DNA from: Methanothrix sp.
Lineage (GTDB): Archaea; Halobacteriota; Methanosarcinia; Methanotrichales; Methanotrichaceae
Reading direction: 5' to 3'
NCBI GenBank assembly: GCA_029907715.1
Contig: JARYLI010000005.1
Location: forward strand, 62,001 to 126,000
Length of the DNA: 64,000 bases
The notes beneath the pieces were generated by a model, which was not told the DNA's origin, searched no databases, and saw only the letters and a program-made list of their open reading frames with translations. Positions 5,427 to 31,819 of this stretch are shown here, in pieces; within the stretch, counting starts at the first letter, position 1; each line of letters starts with the position of its first letter. A program made the translations under genes and the position numbers.

Positions 5427-5614
5427 CATGCGTCATCGGTTAAGATCGACATGTGTATAATTGGACTTATAGTCCTATCTCGCCTCCGTACTGCTATCAC
5501 GACTCAAGTCCACAGTCGGTCGATTTGAATCAATCTCTCCAATCTGGCGCGATCTCAATTTGTCAAATTTTATGGCAAATATATTTACAGAAAAACCTTA
5601 ACCGATGATCAATG
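5427..5614 (+). mobile_element. MITE-like element E2, copy 1 (uninterrupted)
   Basis: A 188-bp non-coding element. The left end CATGCGTCATCGGTTAAG is matched by the inverted right end (read back as CATTGATCATCGGTTAAG), so the terminal repeats agree at 15 of 18 positions. Flanks AAATGTCTGA (5417-5426) and GAATGTCTTA (5615-5624) agree at 8 of 10 bases, a decayed target duplication. The short palindrome GGACTTATAGTCC is intact here; the other two E2 copies carry an E1 element inside that site, so this copy is the empty-site reference. Confidence 0.85.
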
Positions 5615-7256: not shown

Positions 7257-7443
7257 CTCTACGCCAGCAGAAGCACACTGGATAACCAGATCCATGAAAC
7301 CTTCGACTTGCTTCGATGACAGATCGAAGCGCAGGGAGCTCTTACCCTTCAGGGAAATGAGGAACGCTCTTATCCATCTGATAACTTGGCCCGAAGAGGC
7401 ACCAGTCACACTATGCGTCCCTTCCGAGGGTATGAGTGCATTC

Positions 7444-7764
7444 CATGCGTCAGCGGTTAAGATCGACATGTGTAGAATTGGACTTCGCTCTTATGTGCGT
7501 AGCAACTTGCAGAGCATGCAATGTGGTCGCTGAAAGCATTCATTCGTCGAAACGAACGCATAGCATGACCTCTGCTTCTTCGGGCAAGTCATCAAATGGA
7601 TAAGAGCGTTGGACTTAATAGTCTTATCCCGCATCAGTACTGCTATCACGACTCAAGTCCACAGGCGGTCGGTTTGAATCAGACTCTCCAATCTGGCGTG
7701 ATCACAATTTGTCGAATTTCATGGTCAATCTATTTACAGAAAATCCTTAAACGATGACCAATGG
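7444..7764 (+). mobile_element. E2 copy 2, inserted in E1 and itself carrying an E1
   Basis: The left end is CATGCGTCAGCGGTTAAG; the right end read back is CATTGGTCATCGTTTAAG. Without the inner E1 (123 bp) and its 8-bp duplication it is 190 bp, against 188 bp for the uninterrupted copy at 5427. Its own 10-bp duplication is perfect, so this insertion looks more recent than that of copy 1. Confidence 0.88.
7486..7608 (-). mobile_element. E1 copy C, inside E2 copy 2
   Basis: A 123-bp E1 element in reverse orientation (starts CGCTCTTATGTGCG, ends GGATAAGAGCG). It is flanked by a perfect 8-bp repeat, TTGGACTT, at 7478-7485 and 7609-7616; the uninterrupted E2 copy has this octamer once. It belongs to a second subtype shared with the copies at 11750, 34505 and 60419, whose central hairpin is TTCGtttcgaCGAA. 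Confidence 0.9.
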
Positions 7765-7832
7765 AGTGCATTCAGCGACCAGCCCGCATGTCCTTCAAGT
7801 TGCTGAATACATAAGAGCGAGGAGGAATTCAC

Positions 7833-7962
7833 CATTGGATGCTGTGTTGAATAATGTTTGAGAATACGATATCATAGGGCCAATTCATACAAATTGTGAT
7901 TATAGTAAAAACCGATGGCGTTCAACCATATAGGCCTTAATTATCCAACACAGCACCACTGG
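7833..7962. repeat. 130-bp inverted-repeat unit E6
   Basis: CCATTGGATGCTGTGTTG at 7833-7850 is answered by an inverted match ending at 7962 (read back: CCAGTGGTGCTGTGTTGG). The arms agree at about 20 of 24 positions over roughly 80 bp of spacer. It looks like another MITE or a large hairpin, but there is one copy here and no target duplication is visible. Confidence 0.5.
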
Positions 7963-7978: not shown

Positions 7979-8134
7979 TAATTCTCGATAACATCCAGCG
8001 CTGTCCAGCGCACTCGCACGGTGAGATCGTCTCAAAAACAGCGTCATCGCAACATGTGTCTCTGCCAGGCGCTGCGGGGGAGGATTGCTGTTCTGAGAGA
8101 TGTAATGCGGCATGGAATGTGAAGATGTCGGAGG

Positions 8135-8350
8135 GTGGTTGAGATATCGGAGCAATCTCTTGAGAGCGCTCTGGATGAGCTGGAGGAGATCGTCAGGGAG
8201 CTTGAGTCCGGAAGGCTCTCGCTCGACGAGAGCCTGGAGCTCTTCGAGCGGGGCATCCGGCTTGTGAGGATCTGCAGCTCCAAAATAGAGAGCGCAGAGC
8301 GCAGAATAGAATCGCTCACAGGCGTGATACCCGAGGATCTGCTCGAGTAA
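8135..8350 (+). CDS. xseB: Exodeoxyribonuclease VII small subunit
   Basis: A 71-residue acidic helical protein with the XseB signature: SLESALDELEEIVRELESGRLSLDESLELFERGIRL, then a second helix ending at SLTGVIPEDLLE. The length is typical. XseB binds the large subunit XseA to form a nuclease that degrades single-stranded DNA into oligonucleotides. XseA is not adjacent and not elsewhere in the window. The start is GTG at 8135, preceded by GGAGG overlapping it; a start at GTT/GAG downstream is not possible, so GTG is chosen. Upstream DNA is packed with mobile repeats. Confidence 0.88.
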   Translation: MVEISEQSLESALDELEEIVRELESGRLSLDESLELFERGIRLVRICSSKIESAERRIESLTGVIPEDLLE

Positions 8351-11594: not shown

Positions 11595-11914
11595 TCCAAT
11601 CGGTAGGTTAAGGATTTTATGTAAATATATTGACCACGAAATTTGACAAATTGAGACCGCGCCAGATTGGAGAGTTTGGTTCAAATCGACCGCCTGTGGA
11701 CTTGTGTCCTGATAGCAGTACTGAGGCGAGATAAGACTATTAAGTCCAACGCTCTTATCCATTTGATGACTTGCCCGAAGGAGCAGGGGTCATGCTATGC
11801 GTTCGTTTCGACGAATGAATGCTTTCACCGACCACATTGCATGCTCTGCAAGTTGCTACGCACATAAGAGCGAAGTCCAATTCTACACATGTCGATCTTA
11901 ACCGATGACGTATG
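11595..11914 (-). mobile_element. E2 copy 3, carrying an E1
   Basis: In reverse orientation: the well-preserved end CATACGTCATCGGTTAAG reads inward from 11914, while the opposite end is degraded (only GGTTAAG at 11606-11612 intact). The internal sequence matches the other two copies throughout. Like copy 2 it contains E1 in the same octamer and relative orientation. Flanks GGAATCCTCC and GGATTCTCCG are only loosely alike, so the target duplication has decayed. Confidence 0.82.
11750..11872 (+). mobile_element. E1 copy D, inside E2 copy 3
   Basis: A 123-bp E1 flanked by a perfect 8-bp repeat, AAGTCCAA, at 11742-11749 and 11873-11880. This octamer is the reverse complement of the TTGGACTT flanking copy C, so copies C and D descend from one insertion event carried along when E2 moved. 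Confidence 0.9.
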
Positions 11915-15139: not shown

Positions 15140-15264
15140 CGCTCTTATCCATCTGATAACTTGGCCCAAAGAGGCACCAGTCACGCTATGCGTTCCTTCC
15201 GAGGGTATGAGTGCATTCAGCAACCGGCCTGCATGTCCTTCAAGTTGCTGAATACATAAGAGCG
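15140..15264 (+). mobile_element. E1 copy E
   Basis: A 125-bp E1 of the first subtype, with the ATTCAGCAAC/GTTGCTGAAT stem in its right half. Flanks TTTGCGATT and AGGACTATA do not match, so no target duplication remains; an old insertion or a rearranged border. It sits about 90 bp before the mcm TATA box. Confidence 0.85.
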
Positions 15265-31758: not shown

Positions 31759-31819
31759 CGCTCTTATGTGTCCAGCAACTTGGAGTGCATGCAGGCCGGT
31801 TGCTGAATACATAAGAGCG
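31759..31819 (-). mobile_element. E1 copy G, miniature hairpin form
   Basis: Only 61 bp: CGCTCTTATGTG ... ACATAAGAGCG, built from one half of an E1 element joined to the opposite terminus. Arms CAGCAAC and GTTGCTG plus the ends make almost the whole unit one hairpin. No target duplication (flanks AACCCCTT and AATAAAAT). Confidence 0.75.

Follow-up and report, generated by a model that had tools for sequence, protein, structure and literature searches.

Nested MITEs and transposons are familiar from plants, where layered insertions can be read from their duplications, and IS231A favors the ends of transposon Tn4430. IS elements recurrently target REP palindromes (PMC1525189), and the ISH8 subgroup of the IS4 family is characterized by ends of the form CAT...T15 (CAT-----------T) and by 10-bp direct repeats (PMC2266710, Table 1).

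The nest described here, in which an E1 element holds an E2 element that in turn holds another E1, differs from the plant cases in being archaeal, in the very small size of its elements and in the alternation of two families. As with IS elements on REP palindromes, insertions return to one site within a dispersed non-coding repeat, but here both partners are mobile and the targeting is reciprocal. E2 shares with MITEs derived from IS4/ISH8 elements the CAT ends, the T at position 15, the 10-bp duplications and the many short copies, and full-length IS4 elements with identical 18-bp tips occur in the same archaeal family; it differs in that no autonomous partner was found in this genome and no likeness of the interior was seen beyond the tips. 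Like the IS231/MIC231 cassettes of the Bacillus cereus group, E2 would be a non-autonomous member of the IS4 family with CAT ends, but it lacks the AA that IS231 ends have at positions 11-12, and it has no passenger gene.

No report of E1 or E2 elements in Methanothrix/Methanosaeta was found in the open-access literature, and as far as that literature goes the two families are new, as are the link of E2 to IS4, a corrected order of insertion and the recurrent reciprocal sites. We consider the reciprocal hotspot the most interesting result. Within one methanogen genome, insertion order, target choice and age become readable for two families of short elements together. Nests that recur at the same site open target preference to testing, and the absence of partner transposases leaves one asking how so many copies could have spread.

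Layers of the nest

The window (the whole 64-kb stretch of DNA analyzed) contains the nest at 7357-7827. Taking this segment apart computationally, layer by layer, gave three levels, E1 > E2 > E1. Excision of a 123-bp segment from between the paired TTGGACTT recovered an E2 of 189 bp, and excision of this E2 from between the paired GAGTGCATTC recovered an E1 of 125 bp with the flanks ATGAGGAA / AGGAGGAA. The parts are, from left to right:

7357-7364, + strand: left target duplication of the outer E1, ATGAGGAA; agrees with 7820-7827 at 7/8, and the region is single-copy in the sister genome G003
7365-7819, + strand: outer E1, 125 bp when restored by layer stripping
7365-7443, + strand: left piece of the outer E1, subfamily E1b, E1 positions 1-79
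7434-7443, + strand: left target duplication of E2, GAGTGCATTC, part of E1b; 10/10 match
7444-7763, + strand: whole E2, 189 bp when restored
7444-7485, + strand: left part of E2 with the left terminal repeat CATGCGTCAGCGGTTAAG, as in the intact E2 at 5427-5614
7478-7485, + strand: left target duplication of the inner E1, TTGGACTT, part of E2; 8/8 match, single at 5461-5468 in the uninserted E2
7486-7608, + strand: inner E1 of 123 bp, a member of the young subfamily E1a; two differences against the E1a consensus (22 copies)
7609-7763, + strand: right part of E2 with the right terminal repeat ...CTTAAACGATGACCAATG
7609-7616, + strand: second target duplication of the inner E1, TTGGACTT; 8/8 match
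7764-7773, + strand: right target duplication of E2, GAGTGCATTC; 10/10 match
7774-7819, + strand: right piece of the outer E1b, ending in ATAAGAGCG
7820-7827, + strand: right target duplication of the outer E1, AGGAGGAA; 7/8 match to the left copy

The nest at 7357-7827 is thus confirmed as real, with three well-preserved layers of MITE-type elements. Inner and outer E1 belong to separate subfamilies with about 78% identity, and the restored outer E1b is 95% identical to the intact E1 at 15140-15264. The layer stripping reproduced the three levels, coordinates and repeats of the preliminary description. Its restored lengths of 123 bp for E1 and 190 bp for E2 were one or two bases off, and of the duplications that it called intact those of E2 and the inner E1 are perfect, whereas the outer pair agrees at only seven of eight positions. 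Nests of this kind are already known, and the present one is a case of a recurring genome-wide pattern, not a one-off.

Empty sites and age of the insertions

The paired repeats belong to the target and not to the elements, because uninserted paralogues carry each of them once and because flanks differ between copies. Two such paralogous empty sites are found in the window:

5427-5614, + strand: uninserted E2, empty site for the inner E1, with TTGGACTT present once
15140-15264, + strand: intact E1b without E2, empty site for E2, with GAGTGCATTC present once

Matches to TTGGACTT number five in the window against 1.1 expected, and all lie inside E2. The 8-bp flanks agree at 7/8 positions or better in 51 of the 77 located complete E1, and 10-bp flanks agree at 9/10 or better in 30 E2 copies; in both families the flank sequence varies by copy. 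The reading of the 10-bp and 8-bp repeats as parts of the element consensus, against which the preliminary description had warned, fails on these observations.

Six genomes of the genus were compared, and in G003 the spacer of the nest is preserved, with a 429-aa gene followed by a small gene (near 8130-8350, xseB-like by eye) and with flanks that are 96% and 88% identical between the window and G003. This orthologous spacer is empty of the whole nest and of the adjacent E3 element, and the sister-strain comparison suggested earlier has thereby yielded an empty site with no layer of the nest. Because the G003 spacer has neither nest nor E3, all three insertions probably took place after the split from G003. 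The features of the window outside the nest that are missing from G003 are E3 and a second nest:

7840-7955, no strand assigned: E3, of a third family that is MITE-like, 116 bp with 16-bp inverted ends and the 8-bp flanks CCATTGGA/CCACTGGA
11595-11914, - strand: another E2, carrying an E1a (11750-11872) at the same TTGGACTT site but with different flanks; empty site in G003

The E1 and E2 families

E1 elements are 121-125 bp long, with the ends CGCTCTTAT / ATAAGAGCG, exact inverted repeats of about 9 bp (CGCTCTTAT) with an imperfect extension, and 8-bp duplications. At least 77 complete copies and 204 exact tip matches were counted in this 2.0-Mb Methanothrix-type genome (G000); copy numbers of E1 and E2 are lower bounds, the best 40 candidates being scored per search. 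The subfamilies are E1a (young; 22 copies, each with 1-6 differences from the consensus), E1b (the outer E1 of the nest) and E1c. With its short length, terminal inverted repeats, many dispersed copies and target duplications of constant length but copy-specific sequence (the 51/77 at ≥7/8), E1 is classed as MITE-like by anatomy only. Among 50 genomes from 11 genera of the family its tips are restricted to this genus, and no autonomous E1 parent was found in these genomes; next to the unpaired E1 tips of G000, G002 and G003 no transposase ORF was recognized by eye. E1 tips around an IS5-type transposase at C12:3590-4866 were considered as a parent and rejected, relatives showing the IS's own ends GAGGATTCCTATAAACC. 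This locus (L153, in G000) is an IS5-type element with the ends GAGGATTCC and a degraded transposase inside an E1, and relatives of the transposase are in Methanosaeta/Methanothrix records, which puts the window in the Methanotrichaceae. At 31759-31819 the window also holds a 61-bp E1-like palindrome that has both E1 tips and lacks the middle.

E2 elements are about 188 bp long, with 18-bp inverted ends CAT..GTCATCGGTTAAG (left and right CATGCGTCATCGGTTAAG and CATTGGTCATCGGTTAAG) and 10-bp duplications. The 2.0-Mb genome has at least about 47 copies, and at least 52 places are obtained when partial ones and a few in sister genomes are counted in; other members of the genus almost lack E2, with five matches in G003 and one in G005. 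The folding of E2 is stronger than that of shuffled sequences (z -4.2), to which the inverted ends contribute much. The ends fit the pattern CAT-----------T of ISH8, and the 10-bp direct repeats of that subgroup are found in the 30 copies at ≥9/10 (PMC2266710). The ends CAT-------AA--TAA of the IS231 subgroup do not fit, E2 positions 11-12 being CG. In related genera of the family, full-length elements (L218, L217) were found that end in the 18-bp tips of E2 and measure 1450 and 1466 bp; they encode IS4 transposases (NF033592, E 2e-73 and 8e-52) with the YREK motif. The L218 transposase, which comes from another genus and not from G000, has 457 aa and the motif YRGRWEIELVFKELK.

From its ends and duplications E2 is assigned to the MITEs of the IS4 family, ISH8 subgroup, and an ISH8-like transposase of this family would mobilize it in trans, now or formerly. 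In G000 neither an intact IS4 with E2 tips nor an IS4_1 transposase was found, and a PF01609 search of G000 returned only IS1634 and IS5-type fragments. The earlier remark that no transposase is in sight is true of this assembly, but the E2 ends do match IS4-family elements of related genera. A degraded IS701 transposase beside an E2 tip at C16:18602 was rejected as E2 parent because IS701 produces 4-bp repeats (PMC2266710); adjacency or insertion is likelier. Transposase fragments at contig ends (IS1634 on C21, IS5 on C6) had no E1 or E2 tips where the ends were read.

The same IS4 tips occur on MITEs in several genera of the family (L197, L202, L213, L221, L299-L318). Of the 19 exact tip pairs listed as lying no more than 500 bp apart, 14 give a length of 187-188 bp, and the interiors fall into several groups whose mutual similarity is undetectable; the near-constant length possibly reflects a length constraint or an old common origin. 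E2 copies or remnants of G000 at C2:73391, at C16:18602 and in the right flank of C24 adjoin the same sequence, GATAGGCATC, which lies in a further repeated stretch.

Reciprocal insertion sites

Eight E1 copies, of three subfamilies and in both orientations, lie in unrelated E2 copies at two abutting 8-bp sites. Site 1 (TTGGACTT or its variant TTGAACTT) is occupied at C5:69486, C5:73750, C1:52456, C1:131882, C2:74555 and C24:10198; the guests there are E1a, which occurs both ways round, E1b and E1c, and the hosts have flanks of their own. The abutting site 2 (AATAGTCT) is occupied by two oppositely oriented E1s, at C12:170 and C23:100. E2, for its part, lies in different E1s at GAGTGCATTC or the equivalent (C5:69444, C6:78894, C2:147925 and C10:41529), two per orientation. 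Left out of the counts were a right-truncated E1 at site 1 of E2 (C26:1783) and an E2 half-copy in an E1 (C15:12875). With at least eight E1-in-E2 and at least four E2-in-E1 nests, the rarity once claimed for such structures is overstated for this genome.

Target preferences were seen in both families: E1 favors 8-mers with A+T-rich flanks, and E2 favors 10-mers in which position 2 is a purine, mostly A, and position 9 is T. Both E1 sites in E2 overlap the short palindrome GACTTAATAGTC. Inversion between terminal repeats can yield opposite orientations (PMC3004938), although the exact bases common to the E1 ends are few.

We consider it unlikely that there is no true hotspot and that, in small, A+T-rich spacers made up partly of MITEs, insertions into MITEs are simply the survivors. 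The A+T-rich targets of E1, the rank of the E2 sites among the best 0.5-1.2% of intergenic positions when scored with the E1 matrix (built without the same-site nest cases) and the E1s nested in E3 in several places would agree with survival, but 8/8 E1-in-E2 insertions occupy two of about 188 sites and four E2 occupy one E1 site. A model combining target matrix and intergenic limit, moreover, expects 0.36 E1-in-E2 cases against 8/51 observed and 0.04-0.09 E2-in-E1 cases against 4/30 observed. The nominal P values of 3e-9 (E1-in-E2) and about 1e-6 (E2-in-E1) are too optimistic because the sites were picked post hoc, independence is imperfect and the intergenic background is one 64-kb window.

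A target preference of the transposases would account for the hotspots. Tentatively, and with rather less than even confidence, we suggest that two unrelated transposon families may serve as mutual preferred landing sites, sharing safe non-coding targets and nesting by rule; the E1 transposase might respond to the structure or sequence of E2 where two abutting 8-bp sites lie around a short A+T-rich palindrome, and its E2 counterpart to a single 10-bp site in E1.

At C24:9800-10363 of G000 (L145) one E2 has three guests, an E1b at TTGAACTT, an element of about 110 bp and one of about 120 bp flanked by CTGGTGCG.

Order of insertion

That the outer E1 is older than E2, as stated in the preliminary description, follows directly from the nest. 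E2 was also said to have arrived already carrying the inner E1; the nest alone cannot order these two, and the genome-wide pattern points the opposite way. Most likely the inner E1a inserted last, after E2 had moved, because the same site in unrelated E2 copies was reached by E1s that differ in subfamily (three in all) and in orientation, and because, in trees, the two window composites (W1, W2) are not sisters in either part. Terminal branches agree weakly with this order, with 2/123 changes in the inner E1a and about 3.5% in the host E2, some of which source copies may have carried.

The earlier order, by which E2 had picked up its E1a elsewhere before jumping into the outer E1 as a 320-bp composite, has a low probability. 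Both duplications are perfect and a second E2::E1a, oriented alike, is found at a distance of 4 kb, as such a jump would allow, but the E2 parts of the two composites are not mutual nearest neighbors (W1 pairs with C2:147925 at 3.7%, W2 with C8:46024 at 7.4%), their E1a parts have no derived base in common, and other E1 subfamilies, or the other orientation, arrived at the same E2 site independently. Copying of one E2::E1 composite to give both window composites was tested by trees and rejected, and no sister E2::E1 composites were found.

Our main reading, to which we assign a probability of about 0.82, is that E1 and E2 are non-autonomous MITE-type elements, that E1b, E2 and E1a inserted in turn and that the two families recurrently target each other. 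Transposases binding their ends would move both in trans. E1b would have entered the spacer once the lineage had separated from that of G003, E2 would have entered E1b at GAGTGCATTC, and the young E1a, most likely last, would have entered E2 at TTGGACTT. The nest would then be a product of recurrent mutual targeting, E1 going to two abutting E2 sites and E2 to one E1 site; apart from the reciprocal hotspot, the mechanism would be ordinary.

That same-site nests spread through gene conversion among copies of E2 (or E1), and not through repeated insertion, is somewhat less probable still than the earlier order. Many copies are similar and conversion would be expected to keep the site, but the guests vary in subfamily and orientation, the hosts retain their own flanks, duplications and variants, and site 2 holds E1 in both orientations. 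An assembly chimera of repeats, conceivable in a repeat-rich assembly of 55 contigs, can practically be dismissed given the precise duplications at every layer and because the separately assembled G003 holds an orthologue of the E1-in-E2 nest C2:74400-74721 at the identical position with identical flanks.

Other elements

E3 at 7840-7955 is a neighbor of the nest and lies outside it; the family has about 30 genome matches. An Rfam scan of the window returned tRNAs only. E1 copies lie inside E3 at C1:47583, C3:114066 and C1:161793, and at C7:46295 an E1 adjoins an E3 piece.
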